NCBI RefSeq assembly: GCF_030816295.1
Contig: NZ_JAUSXV010000001.1
Span: 682,001 to 746,000, forward strand
Direction of reading: 5' to 3'
DNA from: Microbacterium natoriense
Lineage (GTDB): Bacteria > Actinomycetota > Actinomycetes > Actinomycetales > Microbacteriaceae
Length of the DNA: 64,000 bases
Shown here: piece by piece, positions 7,091-62,559 of the stretch
How positions within the stretch are numbered: position 1 is the first letter of the stretch
Layout of the letters: every line of letters starts with the position of its first letter
Notes under the pieces: model-generated
Database searches by the model: none
Seen by the model: only the letters and a program-made list of their open reading frames with translations
What the model was told of the DNA's origin: nothing
Program-made: the position numbers and the translations under genes

Positions 7091-7148
7091 TGCTGTGCCC
7101 GCGGGCCGGCCGCCGGGGTCCTGAGGACGCCGGACTCGCTCTACTCGT

Positions 7149-35236: not shown

Positions 35237-35316
35237 CGAAGCGCAGGAGAGTCAGCGCCGGGCAATGCCCTATGTTGTGTTCTGTTGGATTCGACAGATC
35301 CTAGCGGGGGTGGGAT

Positions 35317-36408: not shown

Positions 36409-36410
36409 TT

Positions 36411-36440
36411 GTTAGATTTTGTTAGAGTCGGCGGCTAACG
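36411..36440 (+). promoter_or_regulatory. GTTAG repeats upstream of the PL8-island importer
   Basis: TTGTTAGA is followed within a few bases by TTGTTAGAG, and then GCTAAC provides an inverted third copy. The cluster lies about 75-100 bp upstream of the binding protein start and just after the regulator gene. It is a candidate operator for the DeoR/LacI-type regulator. Confidence 0.4.
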
Positions 36441-36511
36441 CTTGGGTAATGTTCGGGCATGCCGGAGAATCGGTTTTCGCAAGGTCACCCGATTCAAAGG
36501 AGAACCCGCCT

Positions 36512-37811: not shown

Positions 37812-37816
37812 CGGAT

Positions 37817-37860
37817 AAGCCGTCGGGCGGGTGTCCAGAGCGACGCCCGCCGGACGGCTT
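37817..37860 (+). terminator. Intra-operon stem-loop after the binding protein gene
   Basis: AAGCCGTCGGGCGGGTG pairs with CGCCCGCCGGACGGCTT with two mismatches. Such loops after binding protein genes usually limit read-through or protect the upstream mRNA, giving more binding protein than permease. Confidence 0.6.
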
Positions 37861-37879
37861 CGACCGAAGGACATAGACG

Positions 37880-38809: not shown

Positions 38810-39720
38810 CCGCCGTGATCGACCGCCCGACCTCGCATCGAGCCGCCCCGATTCCTCCCGGAGCGCCCCGGCCACGGCGCCTCGGCGGGGGGCGTGCCCT
38901 CTCGATCGTCGGTGTCAACGGACTGCTGGTGCTCGGTGCGGTGTACATGGTGCTGCCACTGCTCTGGCTCGTGTTCGCGGCGACCAAGGATGCTGGTGCC
39001 TTGTACTCGGGCGACGCCTTCACCTTCGGCTCCCACTTCCTCGCCAACATGCAGCACTTGCTGCAGAAGGACGGCGGCATCTTCCTCCGCTGGTTGGCCA
39101 ACAGCGTCCTCTATGCCGGCGTCGGCGCAATCGTCGGCGGCTTCATCTCGCTGATGGCGGGCTATGCGTTCGACAAGTTCGAGTTCCGTGGCAAGCGCCC
39201 GCTCTACGCCGCTGTGCTCGTCGGCGTACTCATCCCCAACACCGCAACGGTGATCCCGCTGTACCTCCTCGCGGCGTCGGCCGGGCTCACCAACACGATC
39301 TGGGCAGTTCTGATACCCACGCTCTGCAACCCGTTCAGCGTGTACCTCGCGCGCGTGTTCTCCGCCGGATATCTCCCCGCGGAGACTCTCGAGGCCGCTC
39401 GAGTCGACGGCGCGGGCCCGGTCCGCAGTTTTCTCCAGGTCGGGCTGCCGATGCTCGTGCCGGGATTCGTCACGATCGCGCTGTTCCAGTTCGTGGGCAT
39501 CTGGAACAACTTCATGCTGCCGCTGATCATGCTGCAGAACCGCGAGTTGTTCCCATCCAGCGTCGGCATCGCGCTGTGGCAGAGCCAGGTGCAGCAGAAC
39601 CCCGAGTTCGCGACCCTCGTCATTGCAGGATCTTTCGTCTCGATTGTGCCACTGGTCATCGCGTTCGTGATGCTCCAGCGCTTCTGGCGGGCTGGGTTGT
39701 CGGCAGGGAGCGTCAAATGA
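38806..39720 (+). CDS. Sugar ABC importer permease (MalG/UgpE type)
   Basis: A 304-aa CUT1 permease. The EAA loop is ETLEAARVDGAGPVRSFLQV and the C-terminus is the usual RAGLSAGSVK. It overlaps its two neighbours by 4 bp. As with the other CUT1 importer, no ATPase gene is adjacent. Confidence 0.92.
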   Translation: MTAVIDRPTSHRAAPIPPGAPRPRRLGGGRALSIVGVNGLLVLGAVYMVLPLLWLVFAATKDAGALYSGDAFTFGSHFLANMQHLLQKDGGIFLRWLANSVLYAGVGAIVGGFISLMAGYAFDKFEFRGKRPLYAAVLVGVLIPNTATVIPLYLLAASAGLTNTIWAVLIPTLCNPFSVYLARVFSAGYLPAETLEAARVDGAGPVRSFLQVGLPMLVPGFVTIALFQFVGIWNNFMLPLIMLQNRELFPSSVGIALWQSQVQQNPEFATLVIAGSFVSIVPLVIAFVMLQRFWRAGLSAGSVK

Positions 39721-40724
39721 GTATCCGGCGCCCGGTTATCGCCTTCGCGATGGGCGAGACCGTCCGTCCTCGGGTGTTTACGGATGACCGCATCCGTGAA
39801 TTCGGAGAGATCGCCGACATCGCCGGGTACCTCACCGAGTACGAATCGGATGCTGCGCGCAGCGTCCTCGCCGAGGTCGACGTGCTCGTCACGGGCTGGG
39901 GCGCTCCGCCGATCGACGACGCCGTCCTCGCCGCCGCTCCCCGGCTCGAGGCCGTTCTGCATGCGGCGGGCTCGGTCAAGGCGTATCTCGGTTCGGGCGT
40001 GCTCGAGCGCGGAATCCGTGTGAGCACCGCGGCTGCGGCGAATGCGGTGCCGGTCGCCGAGTACACCGTCGCCATGATCTTGCTCGCCGGGAAGAAGGTG
40101 CTGCCCATCGCGGCTCGGTACCGGACCGAGCGCGATGACTTCGACGTCGAGGCCGCATTCCCCGGCATGGGCAACTACGGTCAGCGCGTCGGCATCGTGG
40201 GCGCCTCCAAGATCGGGCGCCTCGTCATCGAGATGCTGCGCCCCTACGCCTTCGAGGTCGTCGTCTACGACCCGTTCCTCTCCCAGGCTGGGGCGAGCGA
40301 GCTCGGCGTGCACCAGGTCGCACTCGATGAGCTGCTCGCCACGAGCGACATCGTGTCGATCCATGCGCCGTCGCTCCCCTCGACCTTCGATCTCGTAGAT
40401 GCCCGAGGGATCGGGCTGATGCGTAGGGGAGCGACGCTGGTGAACACCGCCCGCGGTGAGATCGTCGATCAGGCGGCGCTCACACGTCGCGTGGTCTCCG
40501 GCGAGTTGTTCACGATCCTCGACGTCACCGTCCCCTGGATCCTCGAGCCAGAGCATCCGCTCTACTCCTCGGACAATGCGTTCCTCACTCCGCACGTCGC
40601 GGGATCCCTCGGCGCGGAACTGGGCCGGCTCGCCGAAGTGGCGCTCGATGAGCTCCGCCGTCTCGTCGCCGGCCGTCCGCTGGAGCACGAGGTCGAAGCC
40701 GAGCTCCTCGCCATCACGGCGTGA
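39717..40724 (+). CDS. D-isomer-specific 2-hydroxyacid dehydrogenase
   Basis: A 335-aa protein starting in an ATGA overlap. The NAD-binding domain has GQRVGIVGASKIGRLVIEML (GxGxxG-like, with A at one Gly position) and the catalytic signature RRGATLVNTARGEIVDQAAL. The later LTPHVAGSLGAELGRLA carries the active-site His. Family members reduce 2-keto acids or oxidise D-2-hydroxyacids. In this operon a keto-acid derived from an uronic sugar is a plausible substrate, which is inference. Confidence 0.87.
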   Translation: MSIRRPVIAFAMGETVRPRVFTDDRIREFGEIADIAGYLTEYESDAARSVLAEVDVLVTGWGAPPIDDAVLAAAPRLEAVLHAAGSVKAYLGSGVLERGIRVSTAAAANAVPVAEYTVAMILLAGKKVLPIAARYRTERDDFDVEAAFPGMGNYGQRVGIVGASKIGRLVIEMLRPYAFEVVVYDPFLSQAGASELGVHQVALDELLATSDIVSIHAPSLPSTFDLVDARGIGLMRRGATLVNTARGEIVDQAALTRRVVSGELFTILDVTVPWILEPEHPLYSSDNAFLTPHVAGSLGAELGRLAEVALDELRRLVAGRPLEHEVEAELLAITA

Positions 40725-40754
40725 ACCGGCGGTTGCGCGCCCCTCGTCCGCTGC

Positions 40755-41591
40755 TCAGGCGAACATCTGCGAATAGTGAGCGGCCAGCGCCGAACCGCTG
40801 ACTGCCTTGTTGTACAGCGCGACCTTGGCGATCGCACCTTTGAAGAAGGAGGCTCCATCGCGCGAACCGACGCGGACCGGCGCGGTGCCGTCACCGGGCG
40901 TGACCACGACTTCGTTCGCGGTGCCGGGCTCATAGACGAGGTCCCTGGTCTGACGAAGCACGCCGTTTTTATAGATGCGCACCGTGCCGTAGGCGCCTTC
41001 GTCGAGGTTGAACGTCGTCGCGTAGTGGATCCACTGGTTGACCGTCACCGCATCTTGGAAGTACGCACCGGCCCCATAGCCGCCACTGAGGTTCCAGGCG
41101 TAGCCGGAAAGCCGGTTCGGTCGATTCTCGGCGTTGACCTGTGAGTACATCCGTCCGGCCCACTCCTGGCTCCCGGAGCCCATTCCTTTGCCGATGAAGT
41201 GGACGTATCCGGTCGCTTCGTCGTCGGTGAACTGCAGCGTATGCGGCTGCAGCCATGCCTCGAACGTGAATCGTCGGGTGGTGGAGATGCTGAAGTCGGC
41301 CTGATCGGCGATCTGGAAGAAGTCGTCGATCCCGTCGAAGACCGCGGCGCGATCCTGGTTCGGCATCGCGACCGTGGTGGTCGGCCCGGTGTAGTAGCCG
41401 GTGCGTCCACGACCGGTCAGGTCTGTTTCGTACCCGGCGGCCGGTTGAGCCATGGGCCAATAGCCGACCGGGCCATCGGCCAGGACCAGGTCATCGTAGC
41501 CGGAGACCGAGACTGCCTTCGGCTGGGGTGCATGAGTGAGGCCGAGGGCTATGCCGATGCCGACACTGAGCAGACTTCTTCGACTGATCAT
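40755..41591 (-). CDS. Secreted LamG/concanavalin-like domain protein
   Basis: A 278-aa protein with a signal peptide (MISRRSLLSVGIGIALGLTH) and one LamG-type beta-sandwich. AVFDGIDDFFQIADQADFSI and FTFEAWLQPH are typical, as is the ending KGAIAKVALYNKAVSGSALA. Such domains bind sugars on the cell surface or matrix. The gene is 21 bp beyond the PL8 lyase gene on the same strand and probably cotranscribed, which suggests substrate binding for the lyase. Confidence 0.85.
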   Translation of the reverse strand: MISRRSLLSVGIGIALGLTHAPQPKAVSVSGYDDLVLADGPVGYWPMAQPAAGYETDLTGRGRTGYYTGPTTTVAMPNQDRAAVFDGIDDFFQIADQADFSISTTRRFTFEAWLQPHTLQFTDDEATGYVHFIGKGMGSGSQEWAGRMYSQVNAENRPNRLSGYAWNLSGGYGAGAYFQDAVTVNQWIHYATTFNLDEGAYGTVRIYKNGVLRQTRDLVYEPGTANEVVVTPGDGTAPVRVGSRDGASFFKGAIAKVALYNKAVSGSALAAHYSQMFA

Positions 41592-41612
41592 GGTGACCTT
41601 CTTTTTGATGGA

Positions 41613-44066
41613 TCAGAGCTTGACCGAGACCTGCTGCGTTGCTCCGGCGCTCCCGGTCAGGTCGCCGAATCGGATGCGCAGTGCCGAACCGGTCGAGATG
41701 TCTTCGACGGAACCCGGCTGGGACAGCACCCGAGTGACCGGCGTGTTCCACACGAGTTCCAGCCCGCTGGCCTGTCGCGCAGGATCAGCCACGCTGATCG
41801 TGGCGACTCCCTGACTGCGCCGCACCAGGACACTGACGGGCTGGCTGACCGTGATCCCGCCTGCGGTGCCGGCGGACCAGAAATTGGCGGCGATCAACCC
41901 GAGACGACGAACCTCGACCGCATGGCAGTCCGGTGTCCGTTCGAGGACGTCGAACTGGTCGACCAGGGCGCCGGCGGCTCGCTGAGTCTCGCGCTGAGTC
42001 GCGCCGGGCAGAAGCAGATACCCGTAGCCTCCTCCCGAGGGATCCTCACCATGATCGATGCTCAAGGTGAGGTAACGCCGGGTGACCGCAGCCGGTGTGC
42101 CGAACAGGGTGTTGACGTCGAGCCACCGGCCAGTGCGGTCTTGACGCGTGGCCCGCACGCTCGCTCGGCCCGGGAACACATAGCCCCCATGCCCTTCGAT
42201 GTGGGCCCAACCGATGTCCGTGAGATCGGCAGACCATCCAGGGGCATCCGGCTGCCGGACACCGTCGACCACGAACCCGGTCGGCGCCGAACTGGAGATC
42301 TGCCGGTTCTCCACCGTGGTCTCGACAGCGTAGCCGTCGGAACTGCTGATGCCGCTGCCGAGGCATAGCAACCCGGCATCCAGGCTGAACCAGGACTTGT
42401 GAGCCTCCATCGTGCTCGACAGGCCCTGCACATGCTGACCCGTCACCCCGAACTCGCCGTCGGTCGTCCCGCCGGCCCATTTCGTCGACGGGCGCGGCTT
42501 GACCCACGCGCCCCCTTCGCCATCTTGAAGCGGCTTCAACGACGCGGTCGTGCCCGGCATCCGGTAGGGATCGACCGTCGGCCAGTAGCCGTCGGCGTAC
42601 TGCGAGATCGTGTCGGAGGACCACCACTGCACCCATCCGGCGCCGGTGTGCCAGCCTCGCAGATTCTCGCCGTTCCCGCATTCGTAGTGGGAGATCCGCT
42701 CCGAGGACATCGAGATCCCGATCGCCCACCCGGGCCGGCGATGGGTGGCCCGGTCCATCTGCGGGAAGATGCGATGTTCGACCGGTTCGGGCAGCGCCGC
42801 CACCGTCGGTGAACTCCAGACCTCCTGCAGATAGGCCAGCCGGCTGAGGGTCGTGTTTCCGGTGGTCAGGACCGGGTCATGGGTGTTGCGTTCCAGCCAG
42901 CCCTTCACGAGACCTCGCCACCGTGCCGCCTGGGCCGGATCGGCGCCCTTGGCGATGAGTGCGATCGCCGCCAGGATCGGATGGGCCCGAGTGAACTGCG
43001 TGCCGGATGGACGCGTGACGCCACGACTCGAGACCATGTCCATCATCAGGCCGGAGAAGATGAACGGTGCGACCGAGCGTTCGATCGTGTCGAGGAACAG
43101 CTGCCTGTTCGGATCGGTCACTTCCCAGCTCGACCCGGCCAGCAGCGCGAACAGTCTGCCCAGTCCATCGAGCAGCACGGCCCCGTAGCCGCCGATGTAC
43201 GGGATGCTCAGATGCTGGATGAACGATCCGTCGGCGTAGTACCCGTCGCCAGAGGAGACATACGGGAACACCGGCGAGAGGGCATCGCGTCCGAGGACGA
43301 TCCGCGCGGGGTTCTCCGAGACGATGCCGCTGAGGATGATGCCGCGGCACAGGTCGACGCGGTTCGCGCCCGTACTGTTCTCGGTGTAAGAGGCGACGAT
43401 CGAGTCCGGCAGGTGGTAGTCGACAGCGGCGCAGTAGCGGGCACGCTGATCCGGCGTCAGGTCGGCGAACATCAGCACCGCCGTGTCCATCAGCGCCTGC
43501 GGGGCGCCGATCTGGAAGTCCCACCAGTTGCCGTATCCCGGCGTCCCCTCGCGGAAGACATCGGTCGTCATGTGGTCGAGTCCCGCAAGGATGCCCTGCC
43601 TCAGTGCAGGATCATTCGTCATACCCGTCCCCGGCTGGGCGTATGCCTCTGCCATCGAGCGCAGCCGGTTGAATGTCGCCGTCATCCGGCCGCTGAATGC
43701 GAACGAGTCCGAATCGGTGTCCGGCTCCGGATCTCCGTAAACCAGGTCCGGCCACAGGGCACCCGGCGCGGGAGCCAAGGAGCCGAGCTGCGTTCTGGCC
43801 TGTCGGCCGAGGGCTGCGAGCTTGGATGTGAACGGCTGACGCGCCGGATCGAAGCCGACGCCGAGGCTCAAGTCCTTCCAGGCCGCGCGCAGCACGGCGA
43901 ACTCGCTCTCGTCGGCGGACGCGGACGCAGACGTCGACATCAGGGGCGAGGCATCCCAGGCGACGGCCAAACCGATCGCCAGGCCTCCGGAGATGCTGAG
44001 AAAGTGGCGACGTGATAATCCGGACACCAATGACGTGGACTCTGACGTTGAACGCTCATTGTTCAT
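41613..44066 (-). CDS. Polysaccharide lyase family 8 (hyaluronate/chondroitin/xanthan lyase type)
   Basis: An 817-aa secreted lyase with a Tat-like signal (SRRHFLS, then a hydrophobic stretch). The helical barrel contains YGNWWDFQIGAPQALMDTAV and the active-site Asn segment NSTGANRVDL. The HLSIPYIGGYG segment has His and Tyr nine residues apart, as in xanthan and hyaluronate lyases. C-terminal beta domains include HTGAGWVQWW and ISMSSERISHYECGNGENL. It cleaves uronic-acid polysaccharides by beta-elimination. The exact polymer cannot be told from sequence alone. Confidence 0.88.
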   Translation of the reverse strand: MNNERSTSESTSLVSGLSRRHFLSISGGLAIGLAVAWDASPLMSTSASASADESEFAVLRAAWKDLSLGVGFDPARQPFTSKLAALGRQARTQLGSLAPAPGALWPDLVYGDPEPDTDSDSFAFSGRMTATFNRLRSMAEAYAQPGTGMTNDPALRQGILAGLDHMTTDVFREGTPGYGNWWDFQIGAPQALMDTAVLMFADLTPDQRARYCAAVDYHLPDSIVASYTENSTGANRVDLCRGIILSGIVSENPARIVLGRDALSPVFPYVSSGDGYYADGSFIQHLSIPYIGGYGAVLLDGLGRLFALLAGSSWEVTDPNRQLFLDTIERSVAPFIFSGLMMDMVSSRGVTRPSGTQFTRAHPILAAIALIAKGADPAQAARWRGLVKGWLERNTHDPVLTTGNTTLSRLAYLQEVWSSPTVAALPEPVEHRIFPQMDRATHRRPGWAIGISMSSERISHYECGNGENLRGWHTGAGWVQWWSSDTISQYADGYWPTVDPYRMPGTTASLKPLQDGEGGAWVKPRPSTKWAGGTTDGEFGVTGQHVQGLSSTMEAHKSWFSLDAGLLCLGSGISSSDGYAVETTVENRQISSSAPTGFVVDGVRQPDAPGWSADLTDIGWAHIEGHGGYVFPGRASVRATRQDRTGRWLDVNTLFGTPAAVTRRYLTLSIDHGEDPSGGGYGYLLLPGATQRETQRAAGALVDQFDVLERTPDCHAVEVRRLGLIAANFWSAGTAGGITVSQPVSVLVRRSQGVATISVADPARQASGLELVWNTPVTRVLSQPGSVEDISTGSALRIRFGDLTGSAGATQQVSVKL

Positions 44067-44161
44067 CCACGCAGGATATGAGGCATCCGCAAGTGCTCAT
44101 GTCGACTCGTGCAAAACCGTGCACGAGGGGGAGAATCACCCCCTGCACTATCGTGAATCTC

Positions 44162-45115
44162 ATGCGTGCACCCGGTCCAGAATCGCTCATCGTCCTCGGA
44201 ATCGGGCTCCCGGTCATGCTGCTCATCGCTTTCCTCATCGGACAGATCGCTCGTTGGATCGTTCGGCGTCGGATCACATTGACGACACCGACCACCGTCG
44301 TCCTCTCGGTCCTCGGGCTCTCGCTGGGTTTGCTGCTGAGCGGGCTCATCTTCGAGGACTCACGGCCGTGGAGCATAGAGGTGCTGCTTCTCTCCATCGC
44401 CTGCACCGTGCTCCTCCTGGGGCTGTTCACCCTCGTGGCGCGTCGCTTTCAGCCCCCGCTCCCAGAGGGCGGGATCTTCGAACTGGTACGCCTGGGTGAG
44501 TCTCATCTCGTCGAGTTCAAATCATCGGCGCGCTGGAACCTGCACACGAAACAGCGCGACGAGCGACTGGAGCTCGTCATCGCGAAGACCGTCACAGGCT
44601 TCTTGAACGCCGACGGCGGGACCCTGCTGATCGGAGTGTCCGACGACGGACGGGTTCTCGGGCTCGAGCGAGATTTCTCGTTGATGCAACGGCCGGACGT
44701 GGACCGCTATGAACTCTGGCTGCGCGACTTGCTCTCAACGCGTCTGGGGCAGAACGCGGCCACGCTGCCCGTCATCGACTTCACGCCGGCCGTCGTCGAC
44801 GGGGCGCCCACCTTCGTCTGCCGCGTGTCGTGCCCGAGCTCCCCGGTTCCGGTCTATCTCAACGCGGGCCGCAACGAGCGGTCGGAGTTCTGGGTCCGAA
44901 CAGGCAATTCGACCCGTCAATTGGGCCTTGAAGAGACGGCGGAGTACGTGATGCTCCGGTGGCCCCTGGGAATCGGCAGGACCATGGCTGCGCAGCTTCG
45001 CGCTGCGGTCCGAGGCAATGGTGCGGGCAATGACGTGAGGATCGCGCGCGGAGCCCACTCGATCACCCGATTCCGCCGACGGCCTGTGCACACGACGCAG
45101 CCGAGTCCTGAATAG
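44162..45115 (+). CDS. Membrane protein with AlbA_2 (Schlafen-like) domain
   Basis: About 317 aa. Two or three helices come first (LIVLGIGLPVMLLIAFLIGQ, then VVLSVLGLSLGLLLSGLIF and VLLLSIACTVLLLGLFTLVA). A cytoplasmic AlbA_2 domain follows: GESHLVEFKSSARWN, then AKTVTGFLNADGGTLLIGVSDDG. AlbA_2 domains occur in nucleic-acid-linked and defence proteins, usually soluble, so the membrane anchor is unusual. ATG 44162 lies 7 nt after TATCGT (44149-44154), giving a leaderless mRNA. It sits inside the PL8 island but has no clear link to it. Confidence 0.78.
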   Translation: MRAPGPESLIVLGIGLPVMLLIAFLIGQIARWIVRRRITLTTPTTVVLSVLGLSLGLLLSGLIFEDSRPWSIEVLLLSIACTVLLLGLFTLVARRFQPPLPEGGIFELVRLGESHLVEFKSSARWNLHTKQRDERLELVIAKTVTGFLNADGGTLLIGVSDDGRVLGLERDFSLMQRPDVDRYELWLRDLLSTRLGQNAATLPVIDFTPAVVDGAPTFVCRVSCPSSPVPVYLNAGRNERSEFWVRTGNSTRQLGLEETAEYVMLRWPLGIGRTMAAQLRAAVRGNGAGNDVRIARGAHSITRFRRRPVHTTQPSPE

Positions 45116-45179
45116 GAGCTCAGTCGTGCGTCGCTCCCTAGAGGACCGGCGAGCAGGGCCGACGCCTTACAGGCATCCT

Positions 45180-46256
45180 TCATCGTCCCATCGGCTCGCT
45201 CCACACCTCGACCGAGAGCCGTGCATTGAGCGTGGGCTGCAGCGTGATCCGCTGCAGCGCCGGGCCGACCAGCCGATTGGTCGACTCCAGGCGGCGCATG
45301 AGCACGGCGATGCCCGTGGCGCCCACATCGAACTTCGGCGGGGCGACGGCGGTCAGCGGTACTGGAGCCAACGCAGCGACCTCGTCGTCGTAGGCGATCA
45401 TCGAAAGCGCCTCCGGAAGCTCGATTCCTCGAGCCTCCGCAGCCTGCTGTATGGCGATCCCATCCTGATCGCTGTGCACGATGATCGAGTCGGCTGAACC
45501 GCTGAACACGAGATCCAGCAATTCCGCTGCGCGGGCCGGGCCGGTGTGGCCGTTCAGGAGCACAGGGGCGGACACCAGCTGCACCGGCGACGCGCGGACC
45601 GCGTCGTGAACACCTTGAGTCAGCCAGGGGGTTGTCGCCGAGTCCGAGCGTACCGCGACGAAGAGGCGACGATGGCCGAGATTGGCCAGGTGCCGCACAG
45701 CGGCTGCCGCACCTGCGGCATGATCTGTCCGCACCGCCTCGAGCCGAGAGTCCGACCACAACGACGGCACAGCGCGCTCCACGAAGCAGACCGGGATCGA
45801 CGCGGCTGAGAGCTGTGCGAGCAACTCCTCGTCGCACTCTGCGCGGGCCGACGTGAACAACAGGCCATCGATGCTGCTAGCGAGCATCCGTCGTACCAGA
45901 CTGACCTCCTCGCGTTCGTCGTAATTCGAGATCGCGAGCACGATCCTGGCACCCGCCGCCGCAGCGGCGCGGGTGGCTCCCTGGATCACCGGGGGGAAGT
46001 AGTAGTTCGTCGTCGGGACGATCATCCCGATCGTCAATGGGCGGTGATACTGCCGGCCTTCACCTTGACGAGTCGGAGCAACTGCACCTCCATGGACGCG
46101 GGTGACGTAACCCTGTTGCTCGAGCTTCACCAGATCACGGCGGACCGTCACCGGGTCGGCGTCCACACGTCGCGCGATCTCCATCACCCGGACGGATCCA
46201 CGTACTCTGATCTCGCTCATGATCAGCGCTCGTCGATCTGCCGCCAGCAATGTCAC
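45180..46256 (-). CDS. Second DeoR-HTH/LacI-sensor regulator
   Basis: A 358-aa protein with the same layout as the gene at 35317: the N-terminal helix-turn-helix MEIARRVDADPVTVRRDLVK with RVHGGAV, then IGMIVPTTNYYFPPVIQGAT and MIAYDDEVAALAPVPLTAVA. Both share the unusual IGMIVPT(I/T)(D/N)YYFP motif, so they are paralogues. It probably represses genes of the PL8 island. No target lies immediately downstream. Confidence 0.85.
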   Translation of the reverse strand: MTLLAADRRALIMSEIRVRGSVRVMEIARRVDADPVTVRRDLVKLEQQGYVTRVHGGAVAPTRQGEGRQYHRPLTIGMIVPTTNYYFPPVIQGATRAAAAAGARIVLAISNYDEREEVSLVRRMLASSIDGLLFTSARAECDEELLAQLSAASIPVCFVERAVPSLWSDSRLEAVRTDHAAGAAAAVRHLANLGHRRLFVAVRSDSATTPWLTQGVHDAVRASPVQLVSAPVLLNGHTGPARAAELLDLVFSGSADSIIVHSDQDGIAIQQAAEARGIELPEALSMIAYDDEVAALAPVPLTAVAPPKFDVGATGIAVLMRRLESTNRLVGPALQRITLQPTLNARLSVEVWSEPMGR

Positions 46257-46403
46257 CTCTCAGTTCTCGCGATCCTACTGGTCGATCTTCCGTTTTGCAT
46301 GTCCGTCGTCCTCACTACGTACTGGATCTTCCCTGAGGGCAACAGCCAGGCGACGGTCTGTCTGCGAGCAAGCGCGAACCCGGACCGCCGCCGAGCGCGG
46401 CGA

Positions 46404-54160: not shown

Positions 54161-54205
54161 TGCGCAGGGACAGGATACCCCCATGGGGTATCCTGTCCCT
54201 GCGCA
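54161..54205 (+). terminator. 21-bp perfect terminator after the FtsX-like gene
   Basis: TGCGCAGGGACAGGATACCCC pairs with its exact inverse across a CAT loop. It starts 17 bp after the stop of the FtsX-like gene. The DUF305 gene start follows 45 bp later. Confidence 0.85.
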
Positions 54206-54249: not shown

Positions 54250-54266
54250 ATGAAGATCCCTACCGC
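54250..54266 (+). pseudogene. DUF305 lipoprotein gene, 5' fragment cut off by the transposon
   Basis: A good ribosome site (GAAGGAAG) is followed by ATG AAG ATC CCT ACC GC, after which the transposon begins. The rest of the gene resumes at 61971 after the second copy of CCCTACCGC. Joining 54250-54266 to 61971-62559 gives one frame of 606 bp (201 aa plus stop) starting MKIPTAAAALLLAGTVALAG with a lipobox Cys next. Confidence 0.9.
54258..54266. repeat. Target-site duplication, left copy (CCCTACCGC)
   Basis: The 9-bp word directly abuts the left end of the transposon. The identical word abuts the right end at 61962-61970. Confidence 0.9.
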
Positions 54267-54303
54267 TGTGAATCGCGGCGGTAGGTGTCGTGTTTTCGGC
54301 GCC
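54267..54303. repeat. Transposon left terminal inverted repeat
   Basis: TGTGAATCGCGGCGGTAGGT and on to about 54303. It matches the right end perfectly for 11 bp, then about two thirds of the next 25 positions with small gaps. Confidence 0.85.
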
Positions 54304-54305
54304 GT

Positions 54306-55231
54306 TTAGCGTCCAACAAGCAGGGCTTCCTGGGCGGCGTCGACGGCTTCGGGGGTGAGGTGGGTGTGCTTGTTGATGTTGAGGATGCGGTTGACCTGGG
54401 TGACGAGCCGGTCGGCCAGCCGGAAGTTTCCGTTGGTCGCTCGAACGATCGCGGCGAGAGCTGCCGTGTGGGCGAGACCCGCGTTGTCGGGGTCCGGGCC
54501 AGGGAGTCGCTGCGCGACGACGGCGGTGAGTTCGTCGCTGCGGAGGGGGCGATACTCGTGGGCGAAGCCGATGCGGCTGTAGAGCTGGGGGTAGCGGGCG
54601 AGGCGTTTCTCGATGCCAGGCATGCCGATGAGGATGACGCCCATTCGGTGACGGTCGTAGAAGTCGCGGACTTGTTCGAGTCCGGCGGTTTTGAGCCGGT
54701 CGGCTTCGTCGATGATGAGCAGTTCGGTGTTCCCGCTGTATTGGGATTCGGCGTGAACGTAGGGGTCGACATGGCCGTGTTGGGCGTAGTCGATGGCCCA
54801 GGAGATGTGTTGGCAGGCTCGGGGCAGGCCTTGGTCGATCTGCTTGATCGTGGCGGCGACGGTTGGGGTGAAGAACGCGGTTCGGCTCTGTTGGACTGCT
54901 TCGGGCACGGGCGGCAGCGCTCCTGCGCTGCGCGAGAGCGGGTGCCACTGTTCCCATTCATCGGTGCCCGCGTAGTGGCGGGCGGATAGTGTCTTGCCGA
55001 TCCCGGGAGTCCGTAGCAGAGGCCGATGTAGCGGTGCGAGCGGACGGTGTCTGCGAACTCCGTGAACCGGCGGTGCTCCCGCGTGGTCACGAACGCTGGC
55101 CGCGTGTCTGCGTGGGGTGGTGGTGCTTCTCTGAATTCGTCGAAGTGGCCGCTGAGGAACCGGCGCCCGTCGTCGCCTGGGTCGAAGAGGACGGAGATGG
55201 GTTTGCTGTCGTCTGGCTCAGTCGTTGGCAT
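54306..55231 (-). pseudogene. TniB-like AAA ATPase of the transposon, frameshifted in Walker A
   Basis: Start [20 protein letters not shown] at 55231. The frame breaks at YGLPG, where one C is missing in the CCC run at 55002-55004. The next frame supplies [11 protein letters not shown], completing a Walker A motif ([10 protein letters not shown]), then Walker [13 protein letters not shown], sensor segment [20 protein letters not shown] and a C-terminal helical domain. Restored length is about 309 aa. Such ATPases choose the target DNA for the DDE transposase. Its start overlaps the transposase stop by 14 bp. Confidence 0.85.
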
Positions 55232-56655
55232 ACGTTCTCAGTCCGTGTCGGGCCGGGGGTGGCGTTGTGCGGTCGGGTGCGCTCTCCACTACCGGCGCGA
55301 CTTCGGGGCGGTGGCGGGTGTCTTCAGGCAGTGAGCCAGCGTGAGTGGTGAGCTCGCGGAGCTGCTGTTTCAGGGCGCGGCGTTGCTGGTTCCTCGCCGC
55401 CTGCAGATCGGTGAAGGACACGGTCTCGGAGGAGCGTTCGGGCGCGATCGCGCGACACAAGAACGCGTTGTCGTGGAAGATCCGCACTTCTCCGAGGTCG
55501 CGGGGGTCGTACCGCACCGTGACGTCTTCGCCGACGTATGCAGCGAGGACCGGTGAGATGTATCGGGTCGATGCGAAGCGGATCCCGTCGCGTTGCACAC
55601 GTCGGGTTGTGGCCGCAGTCAGCAGGAGAGAATCGAGGTCTTCAGGATGTGCGGGCATTCGAGGGATGAAGCTCTCGCTCCGCCAGCGAGTGTGAGGGGC
55701 TGAGCCGGTCGCTGAATGTGGTCGTTCGTTGTACTCGTTGACGATGAATCGCTCGAGCACGTCATCGAGTTGGTGCAGGGTCAGGCTGGGTTCGCTGACG
55801 GGTGCCCCACCTGTGCCGTGCGGGATGAAGCCGTGCAGGTGCGGCAGCAGCTCGGTCGTGATCGTTCGGTAGAACCGCTCGATCTTGCCGCGCCCCTGCG
55901 GAACACCGACCCGCGAGTGAATCAGGCGCACGTGTAGGTCGAGGCAGACGTGTTCGATCCTGGTCGAGGTGAAATCGGACCCATGATCGCTATAGAGGAT
56001 GTCCGGAAGGCCCGACACCACCCACTTCGGGTTTCGTTTCCGAGCGACGGCCTGATGAAACGCCAGTGCGGAGTTTTCAGCCGTCGGTGCTGAAACGCCC
56101 ACCGTGTAGCCGGCGATCGCTCGCGAGTAGTCGTCGAGCACGATCGTTAGCCATGGACGGACGGGTTGCTGCCGATCGTTGAGGATGATCACATCGAGCA
56201 GGGTGTGGTCCATCTGCCACTGCTCATTCGGGGCAGACGTCGAGCGGCGGTAGACCAGCTCGAACCTGTCCCGGTAGGCGGCGTCCCCGCCATCAGCGAG
56301 AGCCGTCAGACCCCGGGTCGAGCGGGCGAACGATCTCGCGGACCGTGGTGTATCCCGGGGCCGGCAATCCGCGGTCCCGGGCAATGTCACCAATGCGACG
56401 GTGGATATACGCGATCGTCGGCGCTGGCCGGCGCACAGCAAGCGCCTCGACCGCCGTGACCAGCTCGGCGGCAGTGCGCGTCGATCCCCTATCGCGGCGA
56501 GGTGCTCTCGCGAGCTGACCTGTCTCAATCCGAGCTGCCCAGCGTTGCAGAGTCCGCACCGCGACGCCGGAGTGTTCCGCAAGCCGCGTCCACGGCACAC
56601 CGTCCTGGTGTTGGCGCACAAGCTCGGCCTTCTGCCGGTCGCTGAGGTGCGCCAT
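55218..56655 (-). pseudogene. DDE transposase (TniA/Mu type), frameshifted
   Basis: From ATG 56655 an N-terminal helix-turn-helix (SDRQKAELVRQHQDGVPWTR, then SGVAVRTLQRWAARI) runs to about 56310. There an extra C in the CCCC run at 56311-56314 shifts the frame. The other frame carries the integrase core: Asp in QWQMDHTLLDVI, Asp in LYSDHGSDFTS and Glu in GRGKIERFYRTI, then a Mu-type C-terminal beta domain (RYISPVLAAYVGEDVTVRYD). Restored length is about 478 aa, close to the 480 of the Tn552 transposase. Confidence 0.87.
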
Positions 56656-56664
56656 GATCCCTGA

Positions 56665-57231
56665 TCAGGCCCGCTCGACGTGCTCGGCCAAGTGCCGATA
56701 GATCGTGGGCCGGGACACCCCGAACGTGTCGGCGATCTCCTGCACGGTGTGGCCACCTTCGTCATACATCGTCCGGGCCTGCCGGATCTTCGTCGGCGTC
56801 ATCTTGAACTTCGGGCCGCCCTTCCGCCCGCGTGCGCGGGCGGCCGCGAGGCCGTCCCGGGTGCGTTCCACGATGAGGTCGTGCTCGAACTCCGCGATCG
56901 CGGCGAGCATGTGGAAGAACAGGCGGCCACCCGGAGTGGTGGTGTCGATGCCCTGCGAGAGGGCCTTCAATCCGACCCCCCGCTGTTGCAGCTCGTCCGC
57001 GACTTGTTTGAGGTTTCGTACCGATCGCCCGAGCCGGTCAAGCTTCGTCACCACGAGCGAGTCACCCGCGCGCAGATACCCAAGGGCTTCTGTCAGCGCC
57101 GGCCTTTTCGCCAGGGTGCCGGATGCGTGTTCGACGAAAATCCTGTCGCAGCCTGCAGCGTCGAGTGCATCGGTCTGGCCGTCCGGATTCTGGTCTCGGG
57201 TCGAGACGCGGGCGTAACCGATCGTGGCCAT
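56665..57231 (-). CDS. Serine recombinase, resolvase/invertase type
   Basis: A 188-aa intact protein. The catalytic Ser is in IGYARVSTRDQNPDGQ (Ser10). Arg residues of the active site lie in LVVTKLDRLGRSVRNL, and the E-helix follows. The C-terminal helix-turn-helix is HTVQEIADTFGVSRPTIYRH. It would resolve cointegrates formed by the transposase, acting at the repeats just upstream (57262-57340). It lies 9 bp before the transposase gene on the same strand. Confidence 0.92.
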   Translation of the reverse strand: MATIGYARVSTRDQNPDGQTDALDAAGCDRIFVEHASGTLAKRPALTEALGYLRAGDSLVVTKLDRLGRSVRNLKQVADELQQRGVGLKALSQGIDTTTPGGRLFFHMLAAIAEFEHDLIVERTRDGLAAARARGRKGGPKFKMTPTKIRQARTMYDEGGHTVQEIADTFGVSRPTIYRHLAEHVERA

Positions 57232-57261
57232 GCCTCAGCGTAACGCGAACGCCGCCTGCTT

Positions 57262-57340
57262 TACATAGATCGCCGACACGAGTCATGAGACACGACTCGC
57301 CGAGCCCGGCGCGATGATCGGCGACTGACTCGTGAACGGT
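57262..57340. other. Candidate res site of the resolvase
   Basis: CACGAGTCA (57277-57285) and TGACTCGTG (57326-57334) are exact inverse copies 40 bp apart. CGAGTC...GACTCG adds another dyad in between, and GATCGCCGAC / GATCGGCGAC flank them. The cluster lies directly upstream of the resolvase gene, where resolution sites of such transposons are found. Confidence 0.55.
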
Positions 57341-57386
57341 CGTTTACGTTCGCGGGCATTGCCGTGTTGATGTTCACAGGTGCCCG

Positions 57387-57431
57387 TTGACATTGGATAA
57401 CCATACAGTTAGCCTGTTAACCATTCGGTTA
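57387..57431 (+). promoter_or_regulatory. Promoter and twin TetR operators of the cargo operon
   Basis: -35 TTGACA (57387-57392) and -10 TAGCCT (57410-57415) are 17 bp apart. TAACCATACAGTTA (57398-57411) covers the spacer, and TAACCATTCGGTTA (57418-57431) covers the start region. The two are 20 bp apart and share 12 of 14 bases. The second is a perfect TAACC...GGTTA dyad. They are likely sites for the TetR protein encoded in the same operon. Confidence 0.7.
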
Positions 57432-57447
57432 GTGATGGGAGATCGGG

Positions 57448-57909
57448 ATGCCTGTACAGATTCGGGTCGCTCGTGTGCTCCTGGCGTTGATCGCCGTGGC
57501 TCATGGCGCGGCGATCGTTGCCTTGGTGTTGCTGCAGGGAGTCCTCGCGGAGCAGATCAGTGGCGCACGGCCAGCGTTGAGTTCCTCGGATGTCTCGAAA
57601 CTGGTCCTGCTGGAGTTGGTGCGCACGGTGTCGTTCCACGCCCTGCTGGTCGTTGTCTGCGGTATCTACGCGGCGAAGATCGGCTCGGGCAACCGGCGAG
57701 TGTTCCGCATTGTGGTCGCGTCGCAGGTGCTGTCAGTGGTCTTCGGGATCGTGACCTGGTTCACCTCGCCCGATGTAGTGCGGTTCGTGACTCCCGCGTT
57801 CGTCGTGACGGCATTGGCTGTCCTCTTGCTCCTCCTGGGCTCGGCGTCTGCTCGAGCGTTTTTCTCGGCCCGGAGCCATGCCGACGTCCAGGCAACACCC
57901 TCCCGCTAA
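57448..57909 (+). CDS. Cargo membrane protein, four helices, unknown function
   Basis: A 153-aa protein with helices at about residues 7-30 (VARVLLALIAVAHGAAIVAL), 52-75, 86-106 and 110-130. The tail is short and hydrophilic. GGGAGATCGGG precedes the ATG. I do not recognise the family. As the first gene under the TetR-controlled promoter, it probably belongs with the exporter that follows. Confidence 0.75.
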   Translation: MPVQIRVARVLLALIAVAHGAAIVALVLLQGVLAEQISGARPALSSSDVSKLVLLELVRTVSFHALLVVVCGIYAAKIGSGNRRVFRIVVASQVLSVVFGIVTWFTSPDVVRFVTPAFVVTALAVLLLLLGSASARAFFSARSHADVQATPSR

Positions 57910-57961
57910 CCGCGCCCAGTCATCCCCCTTCAACGTTTGACTTCGCAGAAAGTGGCATTCC

Positions 57962-58624
57962 ATGGACTACTCGCACGTTCCGCTCGCAGACGCACTCTTC
58001 CTCTTGGCTCACCGGCCGGATGGAAAACGGGTCGTCCAACGCAAGTTCCTGAAAATTGGTCTGGGTGGGGCCTTGTTGACGGATCTCGTCGTGCATCGCC
58101 GAGTGTCTCTGGTTGACGGCAAGGTCGTACCGGATGACACCGGTGCCGTGCCGCCCGGACTGCTAGGCGAATTCGACGCGATGGTCCGCTCCGAGGCGCG
58201 GCCTCGGTCCGCGAAACATTGGGTGCGGAGATTCCGATGCTCCGACGTCGAGGGCCGGGTCGCCGGCCACGCAGTGGACAGCGGCCTCGCGACGACCGAG
58301 GAGGACGTGGTGCTGGGTTTTATCCCTGTCGTCCGCTATGCGCCGAACCAGGCTGCGCTCGATGACCTGGCGAATCGCGTTGCCGACGTCCTGGCCGACC
58401 GCAGAACCGCAACGGAATGGGACGCCTCGTTGGTCGGTCTTTGCGACGCCACCGGGGTACTGAAGAAGGTGTTCCCGGGGATAGCGAAATCGGCGGTGAA
58501 GTCGATCACCGAGGGCGAGTGGGCGTCGGAGGCGGTGCGGAAGGTCATCAAACAGGCCAACGCCGCGGTACGTAACGCGGTCATCTCCACGGTGAACGCG
58601 AACAACGGATCGCAGGGGTTCTGA
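57962..58624 (+). CDS. GPP34 (Golgi phosphoprotein 3) family protein
   Basis: A 220-aa helical protein opening with PLADALFLLAHRPDGKRVVQ, then KIGLGGALLTDLVVHRRVSL and later GLCDATGVLKKVF. This is the GPP34 family: in yeast and animals it binds phosphatidylinositol-4-phosphate at the Golgi, and many actinobacteria carry copies of unknown role. It is encoded 2 bp before an ABC ATPase, which suggests a membrane-surface partner of the exporter. Confidence 0.85.
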   Translation: MDYSHVPLADALFLLAHRPDGKRVVQRKFLKIGLGGALLTDLVVHRRVSLVDGKVVPDDTGAVPPGLLGEFDAMVRSEARPRSAKHWVRRFRCSDVEGRVAGHAVDSGLATTEEDVVLGFIPVVRYAPNQAALDDLANRVADVLADRRTATEWDASLVGLCDATGVLKKVFPGIAKSAVKSITEGEWASEAVRKVIKQANAAVRNAVISTVNANNGSQGF

Positions 58625-58626
58625 CC

Positions 58627-59616
58627 ATGACCGACACGACGCCCCACTCCTCCAACCCGGCGACCCTCGACCGCGCCACTGTGCCCGCGATCGACGGCGC
58701 GATCCAGATCGAGCACCTGTCCAAAAGCTACGGTGCGACCACCGTCGTTGATGACCTGACGTTCACCGTGCACCCCGGGACGGTCACTGGATTCCTGGGA
58801 CCGAACGGGGCCGGCAAGTCGACGACGATGCGGATGATCCTCGGGCTGGACCGCCCCAGCAACGGACGCGCGCTGATTGGAGGCCGCCCCTACGCCCAGT
58901 GGCCCAGTCCCACCCGGCTTGTCGGGTCGCTGTTGGATGCATCGGCGATCCATCCCGGACGCACTGCCCGCGCGCACTTGTCCTGGATCGCACGATCCTC
59001 CGCCGTCCCCGCCTCCCGCATCGACACCGTTCTGGACCGGGTGGGAATCGCCGACGCTGCCGACCGGCCCGCCGGCGGGCTCTCGCTCGGAATGCGTCAA
59101 CGCCTGGGACTTGCCGGGGCGCTGCTCGGCGACCCGCGAGTCCTCATCCTTGATGAGCCCCTCAACGGACTGGACCCGGAAGGCATCGTCTGGCTGCGAC
59201 ACCTTTTGAAGGACTTCGCCGAGACCGGAGGCACGGTGCTGCTGTCCAGTCACTTGATGAACGAGATGCAGGCCACCGCCGACCATGTCGTCGTCATCGC
59301 CCAGGGGCGCCTGATCGCCGATGTCAGCGTCGCCGAACTCGCCGCCAGAACCAGCGGCACCATCCACGTCGGCGGCGACGGCGCCGCCCAGATCATCGAC
59401 GCACTCGCCAAGCGAGGGGGACACGTCGAGAACGCGGATGACTCCCCGGACAGGTTCACCGTCACCGGAATAGACCCCGCCGAGATCAACCGGATCGCCT
59501 GGTCGCACGATGTGACCCTTCGTGAGCTCGCTCGCACCGGAGCGAGTCTGGAGACGGCGTTCCTCACCCTCACCCACGACCAAGACCGCCGCACCACGAA
59601 GGGAACGACATCATGA
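58627..59616 (+). CDS. Cargo ABC exporter ATPase
   Basis: A 329-aa ATPase with Walker A (GFLGPNGAGKSTTMRMIL), signature LSLGMRQRLGLAGALL, Walker B VLILDEPLNGLDP and switch His in SSHLMNE. The C-terminal 100 residues form a regulatory domain. The bacitracin/lantibiotic-immunity type (BcrA-like) is closest. The N-terminal 25 residues are a Thr/Pro-rich extension. It overlaps the permease gene by 4 bp. Confidence 0.9.
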   Translation: MTDTTPHSSNPATLDRATVPAIDGAIQIEHLSKSYGATTVVDDLTFTVHPGTVTGFLGPNGAGKSTTMRMILGLDRPSNGRALIGGRPYAQWPSPTRLVGSLLDASAIHPGRTARAHLSWIARSSAVPASRIDTVLDRVGIADAADRPAGGLSLGMRQRLGLAGALLGDPRVLILDEPLNGLDPEGIVWLRHLLKDFAETGGTVLLSSHLMNEMQATADHVVVIAQGRLIADVSVAELAARTSGTIHVGGDGAAQIIDALAKRGGHVENADDSPDRFTVTGIDPAEINRIAWSHDVTLRELARTGASLETAFLTLTHDQDRRTTKGTTS

Positions 59617-60437
59617 CCGCCACAACCGCTCCCGTTCAAGAGGTCAGCCGACACGAGCTAACCCGGGCACCGTTCGTCGACCTCGTCAAGGCGGAGCTCG
59701 GGAAGATCCTCAGTCAACGCCCCCAACGGTGGCTCTTCGGGATTGCCGTGCTGCTCGCACCGATGGCCGCAATCGTGTTCTGCATCAGCCTTCCAGTCAC
59801 TCAAGGTAAGACTCTTGGTGACACGGCGACCGGAGATGTACTGACGGCGAGCCTGCTCGGCATCGACGCGGCCACGATCGCTGCGATCGTCTTCGCCGCC
59901 GTCGCTGTCGGCACCGAGTACTCCACCGGCCTCATGCAGCACAGCATCACGGTCACCCCCAACCGCACCAGGCTCCTCACCGCGAAGACCATCGCGGTCG
60001 CCAGCGCCACCGCCGTGATCGGAGTTGCTGGGGTCATCCTCGTCGGGGCAGTAGCCGGCGCCGCCGTCGCTGGCACGGGCCGCAGCTTCGTCGACATCCT
60101 CGGCGGATCCGGGCCGCGCCTGCTGGCAGGAAGCATCCTCATGCCCGTGTTCTACGGGGTCCTCGCCACCCTTTTCGCTTTCATGTTCCGAAAGACCGCC
60201 GCCGGCATCCTCGGACCCATCGCCGTCCTCGTTCTCGCGGCGATCATAGGATGGTTCGGAGCTGATATCAGCCAGGTACTCACCCCACTAACACCCCTCG
60301 CCGGCCTACACAGCATCTCCGGGATCGCCTCCGGCGCCGAGGACATCGGCCCGCTATCCGGAGCTATCACACTCATCGTGTGGCTTCTCTTCGGCTACGG
60401 AATCGCCCGCTGGCGCTTTACCCGAAAGGACGCATGA
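59613..60437 (+). CDS. Cargo ABC exporter permease
   Basis: A 274-aa six-helix membrane protein of the ABC-2 type (LFGIAVLLAPMAAIVFCISL, then the conserved YSTGLMQHSITVTPNRTRLL loop and VIGVAGVILVGAVAGAAVAG). It pairs with the ATPase just upstream. Its stop overlaps the TetR start as ATGA. Confidence 0.88.
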   Translation: MTATTAPVQEVSRHELTRAPFVDLVKAELGKILSQRPQRWLFGIAVLLAPMAAIVFCISLPVTQGKTLGDTATGDVLTASLLGIDAATIAAIVFAAVAVGTEYSTGLMQHSITVTPNRTRLLTAKTIAVASATAVIGVAGVILVGAVAGAAVAGTGRSFVDILGGSGPRLLAGSILMPVFYGVLATLFAFMFRKTAAGILGPIAVLVLAAIIGWFGADISQVLTPLTPLAGLHSISGIASGAEDIGPLSGAITLIVWLLFGYGIARWRFTRKDA

Positions 60438-61183
60438 CGATGCCCAGCACATCGGGCGAAACCGCCCCGTCGAAGACGAGGCGACCCCGGCCCGCAGATC
60501 GAGAGTTGACATTCGCGGAACGAGCACGTCGTGAGCAACTCATCAGCGTCACGATCGACCTAATCGCCGACAACGGAGCCGCCAGAACATCGCTGCAGAA
60601 TATTGCTGATGCCGCATCGATCACCAAAGCGGCCGTGCTGTACCACTACCCAACCAAGAAAGACGTTATCCGGGCCGCGTACGAAGTCGTCCGAACCGGC
60701 CTCATCGCCCACATGCGCGCCCGCATCGAAGCAGCCCCTACACCCGGCGCAGCGCTCAAGGCCTACCTCACCTCGCAACTCGACTACCTCGCCGAGCACC
60801 CACAGCACGTCCGCGTCATGGCCGAATCATTCACCGACCCCGACACCGGAATCACCGAACACGCCGACACTCAGGCCCGATGGCGACCCCTCGCCGACCT
60901 CATTACTAAAGCCCAGACCGCCGGGGAATACAACGCCCAGGTCAATGCCGAGGCACACGCGATCATGTTCGGCGGAGCCGTCGACGCGCTCGTCGCCGAA
61001 ACCCTCACCAACCCAGACTTCTCCCTCCCCGGAGGTGCGAGCGCTCTCCTCGGCCTCGTCGACGTCTTCATGCCCTCGCCGCCGGAACGTGAACACTCCG
61101 ACGATGCACACCAAGCCAACGCGGCCGGCCCCGCGAAAACAGGACGAGAACCGTTGAAAGTCACCAGTGAGGGAAACGCATGA
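60434..61183 (+). CDS. Cargo TetR family repressor
   Basis: A 249-aa protein. After a Pro/Arg-rich leader, the TetR helix-turn-helix is RREQLISVTIDLIADNGAAR, then SLQNIADAASITKAAVLYHY. The ligand domain follows, and the last 30 residues are polar. As a late gene of the operon it most likely closes an autoregulatory loop at the twin operators near 57398-57431. The ligand is probably the exported compound. Confidence 0.9.
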   Translation: MTMPSTSGETAPSKTRRPRPADRELTFAERARREQLISVTIDLIADNGAARTSLQNIADAASITKAAVLYHYPTKKDVIRAAYEVVRTGLIAHMRARIEAAPTPGAALKAYLTSQLDYLAEHPQHVRVMAESFTDPDTGITEHADTQARWRPLADLITKAQTAGEYNAQVNAEAHAIMFGGAVDALVAETLTNPDFSLPGGASALLGLVDVFMPSPPEREHSDDAHQANAAGPAKTGREPLKVTSEGNA

Positions 61184-61842
61184 CGCGAACGAACCGCTCG
61201 ATGGGCCCATGGGCGAGCACAGGGCTGCTCTGGATGCTCGGCCCGTTGTGGTACCTGCTGTGTGAAGCGATCGCGGCCACCGCATTCCCGGGATACAGCT
61301 ACGCCACCAACTACATCAGCGACCTCGGCGTGCCCGACAAGGGCATCCTTGATGGACGTGTTCTCGATTCTCCCCTCCATGCCGTGATGAACGCCGGGTT
61401 CATCGGTGAAGGCATCCTGTTCCTCCTCGGGCTCGTCCTCCTCCTGCCGCGCCTCCACCGCACGGCCAGCGTCACACTCCTGATCATTTTCGGAGCCCTC
61501 CACACTGTGGGCATCGTCCTGGTCGGTGTCGTGCCCGGGTCCGAAGCTAACGTGCATAACGGACTGATCGCCTGGCACGGATTAGGCGCGTTCCTCGCGA
61601 TCGCGAGCGGCAACCTCGTAGCGATCATCGCAGGCAGAAGCCTCCGCATGTCTGGGGCGGTTCGTCGGACCGGATGGTTTCTCGGCGCGCTCGGCTTCGC
61701 CAGCGCAGCCCTGCTCATGGTCCACTTTCTCCTTCCCGACGGGATCTGGGAACGGGCATCCGTGTACACATTCCTCGCCTGGCAACTCGTCACAGCAAGG
61801 GTCCTGCTACGCGGTTCAGCCGTTCCCGACGGACCCAGATAG
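61180..61842 (+). CDS. DUF998 family membrane protein
   Basis: A 220-aa protein with about six helices. The first (STGLLWMLGPLWYLLCEAIA), the YATNYISDLGVP motif after it and the central NAGFIGEGILFLLGLVLLLP are typical of DUF998. It overlaps the TetR gene (ATGA) and ends 119 bp before the right transposon end. The role is unknown. The 61843-61924 stretch shows only the tail of the cargo. Confidence 0.83.
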   Translation: MTRTNRSMGPWASTGLLWMLGPLWYLLCEAIAATAFPGYSYATNYISDLGVPDKGILDGRVLDSPLHAVMNAGFIGEGILFLLGLVLLLPRLHRTASVTLLIIFGALHTVGIVLVGVVPGSEANVHNGLIAWHGLGAFLAIASGNLVAIIAGRSLRMSGAVRRTGWFLGALGFASAALLMVHFLLPDGIWERASVYTFLAWQLVTARVLLRGSAVPDGPR

Positions 61843-61924
61843 CGCCCCCTACAAACGCTCTTATAAGAGCCGGTTGCGCACCGCCCGGGGACCGTACCCG
61901 GCCGATCGCCGCTCGACACTTATC

Positions 61925-61961
61925 TCCACCAAAACCGCGCCACAAAGCGTCGCGATTCACA
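61925..61961. repeat. Transposon right terminal inverted repeat
   Basis: Reading inwards on the - strand it starts TGTGAATCGCGACGCTTTGT. It matches the left end perfectly for 11 bp, then imperfectly through the GTTTT-containing segment. Confidence 0.85.
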
Positions 61962-62559
61962 CCCTACCGCGGCTGCAGCCGCGCTCCTCCTCGCCGGAAC
62001 CGTCGCGCTCGCCGGGTGCTCCGCGGCCGCGCCGAGCGACCACTCCTCGATGCCGGGCATGGACCACGGCTCGTCGTCCTCGACGGCATCCGACGCGCCT
62101 GCATCCGGGGCGAACGACGCCGACACGATGTTCGCGGCGATGATGATCGTCCACCATCAGCAGGCGGTCGATATGTCCGATCTGGTGCTCGGCAAGGAGG
62201 GCATCGATCCGCGGGTCGTCGATCTCGCCGAGCGCATCAAGGCCGCGCAGGCGCCCGAGATCGAGAAGATGCAGGACTGGCTCGACGACTGGGGTGTGGA
62301 TGCTCCTTCCGGCGGGATCGGCCACGGTGACGGCATGATGACCGAAGACGACATGGCCGCTCTCGAAGCGGCATCCGGCGCCGAGGCCTCGAAGCTGTTC
62401 CTCGAGCAGATGATCGTGCACCACGAGGGCGCGATGGCGATGGCCGAGACGCAGATCGCCGACGGTGAGAACCCCGATGCCGTCGCCCTCGCCGAGAGCA
62501 TCGCGTCCTCGCAGGGCGACGAGATCGCGGAGATGAAAGACATCCTCGGGTCGCTCTGA
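61962..62559 (+). pseudogene. DUF305 lipoprotein gene, main part, separated from its start
   Basis: The frame from 61962 reads through a lipoprotein signal (AAAALLLAGTVALAGC) and a Ser/Met/His linker into a DUF305 domain with two repeated metal-type motifs: MIVHHQQAVDMSDL and QMIVHHEGAMAMAETQ. DUF305 proteins are secreted four-helix, ferritin-like proteins often linked to metals. No ATG, GTG, TTG or CTG occurs in this frame between the stop at 61864 and the ATG at 62050, which lies after the signal. A product from 62050 would therefore stay in the cytoplasm. The 61962-61970 bases are the second copy of the target duplication. Confidence 0.88.

Follow-up and report, generated by a model that had tools for sequence, protein, structure and literature searches.

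A Tn552-like transposon in a DUF305 lipoprotein gene of Microbacterium natoriense and the variable target duplications of its relatives

The DNA analyzed here is a stretch of 64,000 nt (hereafter the window) from Microbacterium natoriense (assembly GCF_030816295.1, contig NZ_JAUSXV010000001.1, positions 682,001-746,000, forward strand), in which a transposon of 7,695 bp (54267..61961, unstranded) interrupts a gene for a DUF305 lipoprotein. Its matching ends, a 9-bp target duplication and an empty site in a second genome of the species establish that the insertion is genuine and place the element to the exact base. We assign it with high confidence to an actinobacterial branch of the Tn552-like transposons, whose members differ in the length of the duplication that they carry.

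The insertion in the DUF305 gene

Read directly from the sequence, the left junction runs from 54250 as ATGAAGATCCCTACCGC followed by TGTGAATCGCG, and the right junction (approximately 61951-61973) as CGCGATTCACA followed by CCCTACCGCGGC. The target duplication CCCTACCGC occupies 54258..54266 on the left and 61962..61970 on the right (both plus strand). In the only other genome of the same species, G166 (locus L030), the joined window flanks align unbroken through the joint (97.8% along 1,295 bp, a single gap). The empty site there reads ATGAAGATCCCTACCGCGGCTGCAGCC, with CCCTACCGC present once. A search of G166 for the DNA of the element returned just eight short fragments of 66-85% identity. 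The leftmost 451 bp of the query region match the genome of the element itself once at full length and once as a 32-bp piece at 88%. An earlier note on this DNA, made from the letters and their open reading frames, had proposed a transposon with exactly these ends, sharing terminal inverted repeats and flanked by a 9-bp direct repeat, and had suggested looking for an uninterrupted DUF305 gene in a related genome and for further copies by means of the termini. The single copy of CCCTACCGC in G166 confirms the ends and the duplication, the outer 11 nt of the repeats are perfect, the uninterrupted gene was found in G166, and relatives with the same termini were recovered. A match of the target CCTACCGC (54258-54286) to its reverse complement GCGGTAGG, just inside the left end, was considered as meaningful; three other copies inspected by eye lack it, and it was taken as chance.

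The 5' stub of the DUF305 gene (its first 17 bases; 54250..54266, plus strand) ends in the left target copy, and the rest (61971..62559, plus strand) contains the hydrophobic stretch, the lipobox and the mature part and has no start codon, as judged from the junctions, the open reading frames and G166. Joined, the window flanks encode 201 amino acids without a stop, of which 195 are identical to the intact 201-residue protein of G166. In the window, the start codon opens only a 19-codon stub, and the first in-frame start of the right part is an ATG at 62050 (169 amino acids), beyond the lipobox. What the earlier note had deduced, namely an insertion at codon 6, a 201-codon frame across the joined halves and neither half with both a start and a signal, agrees with these observations. 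Matches to DUF305 were found in 165 of 198 genomes of the genus (G166 at 96%), and the interrupted gene is the only one that this search found in its own genome. The insertion would have parted the start codon from the signal and the mature part, and as no second such gene was found in the genome, the lipoprotein has very probably been lost. The remnant might still be expressed from its internal start, through transcription that runs on from the cargo or begins at an outward-facing promoter, given that the ATG at 62050 is in frame and that the cargo genes are oriented towards it. We regard this as rather improbable, and because that start lies beyond the lipobox, its product would not be a lipoprotein.

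A perfect 21-bp palindrome (54161-54205, centre ATACCCC-CAT-GGGGTAT) lies about 45 bp upstream of the DUF305 start, and may be a terminator or a CsoR-like (copper) operator. It is also present in G166 (L030), and in none of the 28 other DUF305 loci searched.

Ends, gene order and family placement

Of the inverted repeats listed for the region, the longest pairs 54267-54313 with 61915-61961, two arms that are 70% complementary over 47 nt. By repeat and motif comparison, the left, ATPase-side end (54267..54290, plus strand) consists of TGTGAATCGCG and a subterminal GTGTCG at element position 19, and the right, cargo-side end (61915..61961, minus strand) has TGTGAATCGCG outermost, with GTGKCG at positions 19 and 43 from the end; the motif is thus found at position 19 in both ends. 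These motifs agree with the subterminal repeats that one study reports for Tn7, Tn5090, Tn5053 and Tn552 (PMC8649781). From the left end, the gene order is AAA ATPase, DDE transposase with a Mu-type C-terminus and serine resolvase, all on the minus strand, followed by six cargo genes on the plus strand. Open reading frames, Pfam and comparison with related loci divide the ATPase into a downstream piece with an AAA_22 match (54306..54908), before which the frame is broken, and an upstream piece in a different frame (54990..55231). The transposase likewise consists of a downstream piece with rve and Mu-transpos_C matches (55218..56300) and an upstream piece with helix-turn-helix matches in a different frame (56293..56655). 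The resolvase (56665..57231; 188 amino acids) is an open frame, and the presumed res region (57232..57348, unstranded) is placed by a break in similarity upstream of its start.

The transposase comparison used the intact relative L003 as the query, with figures taken from 60 of 4,835 records. Among the matches listed, rows from Firmicutes plasmids, which are regarded as Tn552 copies although not annotated by that name, show 39-43% identity over 85-87% of the transposase, whereas rows annotated as TniA show 30-30.5% over 39%. A Pediococcus copy groups with clade A in a quick tree (Shimodaira-Hasegawa-like approximate likelihood ratio test, SH-aLRT, 99), on a long branch, the TniA root or branch being very long, and the Tn552-like Pediococcus locus has the same order of ATPase, transposase, resolvase and cargo. 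No TniQ was found in the ten open reading frames of the element that were scanned, with a library that does recognise the TniQ of a Tn402-like element. The L003 record, which is titled Vibrio cholerae strain 35D and carries a module 93% identical to that of the window over 3.1 kb, is probably a mislabelled or contaminated assembly.

Tn552 of staphylococci (p271, p480, bin, bla) resembles the element in gene order and in the lack of TniQ among the scanned frames, and the name p480 may be compared with the approximately 480 open codons of the intact relative. The cargo of the two is unrelated, and the inverted repeats differ, those of Tn552 measuring about 120 bp according to PMC3276174, which also gives duplications of 6 bp, with 10 bp in two plasmid groups, against 9 bp here and 6-10 bp in the relatives. 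Further accounts describe 7-bp target sites for a Tn552 derivative (PMC12486829) and a 6-bp footprint for a B3/Tn552-type prophage (PMC8705779). The 9-bp duplication differs from the 6 bp of Tn552 by degree and falls inside the printed range of 6-10 bp; since both 6- and 10-bp duplications of Tn552 are already in print, the element represents a lineage variant of the Tn552 kind and not a new kind. A literature search, to which most subscription papers were out of reach, showed, among the records listed, no account of duplications of 8-9 bp in a branch from Actinobacteria.

The earlier note had compared the element with Tn5053 and suspected a less described branch. The second part stands, in that its duplication does set this branch apart from Tn5053; the nearest kind, however, is Tn552, by transposase, gene order and the lack of TniQ among the scanned frames. 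A Tn5053/Tn402 element with an exceptional 9-bp duplication would share the broad superfamily, that is, a Mu-type transposase, an AAA ATPase, a serine resolvase and TG...CA ends. The Tn5053/Tn402 family is known for res hunting, and its terminal inverted repeats measure 25 bp, as compared with 11 perfect base pairs here. Some relatives of our element do adjoin recombinase genes: a serine recombinase match lies beyond the ATPase-side end in 14 distinct flanks (86 were counted, doubles included, with L024/L072 as one locus; the figure was 16 of 86 before removal of the double counts of L024 and L072, two modules on one strand). At 11 distinct loci the match is on the same strand and starts 63-107 bp away from that end, not counting L021 (from base 1) and L079 (from 1,313). 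A res region would be expected at this spacing, and res sites are hotspots for Tn552 according to PMC3276174. Most copies, however, have no recombinase within 1.5 kb of the ATPase-side end, 5 of 38 far-side flanks have one, and the window copy is not inserted beside a recombinase or res. Given the low similarity and coverage of TniA, the lack of a TniQ that the library would have recognised, and 5-bp repeats (the length typical of Tn5053/Tn402) seen once among the relatives against 3 expected by chance, membership of Tn5053/Tn402 appears highly improbable. Similarity to Tn7-like elements and type V-K CRISPR-associated transposons (CAST) was also detected, the transposase of the intact relative matching CAST TnsB (E 1.3e-38) and its ATPase matching ShTnsC weakly (E 2.6e-4); neither TnsA nor TniQ was present in the ten frames scanned.

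At two loci (L024 and L133), a clade B module directly adjoins one of clade A with the same orientation, an arrangement that insertion of B into the res region of A might have produced.

Target duplications among related elements

When active, the DDE transposase, aided by the AAA ATPase, would have linked the TG...CA ends to the two target strands, cut with a stagger of 9 bases, and repair of the gaps would have produced the 9-bp repeats; the repeats and the empty site are observed, and the chemistry is that expected from the Mu/Tn7-type family. Transposase matches at E<=1e-80 were present in 35 of 366 genomes of the genus and 34 of 396 of the order, the element's own genome being in both sets. 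Matches outside the first 26 loci were added to the set, in which L016/L069, L018/L071 and L024/L072 are loci present twice. Among the resulting 101 modules, the ATPase-side end was recognisable in 89, and 39 of these (some loci twice) could be matched with a partner end flanked by an exact repeat of at least 5 bp. The repeats measure 5 bp in 1 module, 6 bp in 5, 7 bp in 4, 8 bp in 11, 9 bp in 16 and 10 bp in 2, whereas a null from displaced flanks gives 3.0, 0.9, 0.25, 0.05, 0.03 and 0.03 for 5 to 10 bp, respectively. For repeats of at least 7 bp, 33 were seen and 0.36 predicted. In addition, GTC or GGC, a motif unused in the selection, stands at positions 21-23 in 37 of the 38 far ends with a repeat of at least 6 bp.

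Several readings were dropped before insertions were compared: L090 (8 bp), the flanks of which are those of L087 minus one base in a G run; L088 (5 bp) and L094 (6 bp, motif absent from the far end) as likely chance; and L071 and a second reading each of L079 and L109 as duplicates. With the plasmid copies L132 and L134 added, 35 insertions were obtained, that of the window included, and their clade counts were entered by hand. The duplications range from 6 to 10 bp. Clade A (10 insertions) has 7 bp once, 8 bp five times and 9 bp four times; clade B has 9 bp in 11 insertions and 10 bp in 2; and the remainder, which is paraphyletic in the tree, has 6 bp in 3, 7 bp in 3, 8 bp in 4 and 9 bp in 2. 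The difference between clades gives a Kruskal p of 8e-5, and A against the rest a p of 0.052, for rows that are not phylogenetically independent. With 0.9 repeats of 6 bp predicted by chance, one of the 6-bp cases still counted could be accidental, though the far ends carry the motif. The left end of the window copy lies 39 bp past the ATPase stop, a spacing found equally in 34 of 38 modules labelled A (L004, L063, L066 and L068 deviate).

Four elements (L099, L106, L107 and L112) have both terminal 24-mers identical and lie at unrelated sites with duplications of 8, 7, 7 and 6 bp, respectively. Descriptions of Mu-type transposases usually give a single fixed cut spacing. Our data lean towards a different view, held with little more than even confidence, in which the spacing of the target cuts is set loosely by the transpososome, nearly identical transposases cutting 6, 7 or 8 bases apart, and in which the preference shifted between clades, to 9 in B, 8-9 in A and 6-9 elsewhere. 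Two further elements, L079 and L109 (10,155 and 10,116 bp), carry a module at each end in inverted orientation and have 9- and 6-bp duplications, respectively; with two modules in L109, its 6 bp is attributable to either transposase.

State of the copy, cargo and its exchange

At 20 of 26 related loci the pieces of the transposase share a single open frame, and at 21 of 26 those of the ATPase do (loci with transposase relatives, some of them fragments, with counts read from the comparison table), and the window copy is broken in both genes. Other broken copies affect the transposase (L007, L020 and L026) or the ATPase (L012 and L018), and L025, L027 and L028 are truncated or fused. Given the two broken frames, and given that the single Mu-transpos_C match of the genome is that of the element itself, the copy is probably fixed in place, unless a related element provides the proteins. 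Programmed frameshifting was considered for both frames and rejected, because most relatives keep single open frames there.

If both breaks were instead sequencing or assembly errors, the element would still be active. Both lie in CCCGGG contexts (by inspection), as does one indel of the flank relative to G166, and the resolvase and cargo frames are open. Nevertheless, the genome is a single contig rated complete, broken transposition genes occur in the other copies named above, and frameshifted transposases are known from Tn552 itself, PMC3276174 placing a p480 frameshift in all pMW2-like copies. We consider an active element with misread frames unlikely.

Several points weigh against our account of a Tn552-like transposon that moved into the DUF305 gene and can no longer move by itself. 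Its movement is deduced here from sequence. As many as 50 of the 89 modules have no partner end in the DNA examined, for which long cargo, contig ends, nesting and deletion are likely reasons. A whole-genome search for TniQ gave no match, with a panel that had no positive control. Finally, the 43.9 kb of flank aligned to G166 contain 25 gap entries, several of them clustered and few compared with reading frames, a figure that bears on both sides of the question of assembly error, and the one gap in a CCCGGG context resembles both frame breaks; such error nonetheless remains the unlikely explanation of the breaks.

The six cargo genes, all on the plus strand and defined by open reading frames and Pfam, encode a 153-residue protein without a Pfam match above the cut-off and hydrophobic by inspection (57448..57909), a GPP34-domain protein (57962..58624), an ABC transporter ATP-binding protein (58627..59616, also by NCBIfam), an ABC-2-like permease below the Pfam cut-off (59613..60437), a TetR-family regulator (60440..61183) and a DUF998 protein (61180..61842). 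For the ABC ATPase, the NCBIfam models with the best scores (lantibiotic protection, GldA and DrrA) stay below their cut-offs, so that a role in export or protection is only a guess. A defence function was considered and set aside, PADLOC returning just ATPase-type matches for one protein, and no match to the cargo DNA was found on plasmids. The permease occurs in 2 of 361 genomes of the genus, its own included.

The presumed function of the serine resolvase is to resolve cointegrates at a res site that precedes its gene, and it is at this point that the cargo blocks of related elements switch. Among the matches listed, similarity to related modules ends 72-117 bp upstream of the resolvase start in 10 of 12 window pairs, the exceptions being L006 (inside the resolvase gene) and L015 (37 bp). 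More broadly, of 342 module alignment pairs (82 modules), 198 end 0-300 bp upstream of the start, 99 stop short of it and 45 extend further. The clade B module L095 has in common with L099, L106, L107, L110 and L112 of the other group a far arm of about 1.18 kb (98-100% identity), which ends upstream of the resolvase at 117-128 bp (L106 and L112), about 730 bp (L107) or about 2.5 kb (L110). The cargo block also occurs in genome G276, at 90% over 4.8 kb; there it lacks the final 18 bp of the right end and adjoins the beginning of a resolvase that soon diverges (by inspection). The breakpoints are observed, and the resolvase may be the agent; shuffling driven by resolvases is an idea already known in the literature, where three papers use the phrase 'shuffling function of resolvases'.

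Elsewhere in the window, 11.2 kb (35235-46390) have no counterpart at that place in G166 and hold genes for two regulators that contain sugar-binding domains, for ABC uptake, for a protein of polysaccharide lyase family 8 and for an AlbA_2 protein. Another region of about 1 kb (7088-8061) has no counterpart in G166 and lies beside a short inverted match.

The position of the breakpoints, clustered just upstream of the resolvase gene, hints at the way in which elements of this kind change their cargo. The long and variable target duplications are a property of the actinobacterial Tn552-like lineage and not an oddity of one copy, and the elements that combine the same ends with 6-, 7- and 8-bp duplications provide material for studying cut spacing in Mu/Tn7-type transposases. 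If the spacing is indeed loosely set, such transposases could show what sets it.

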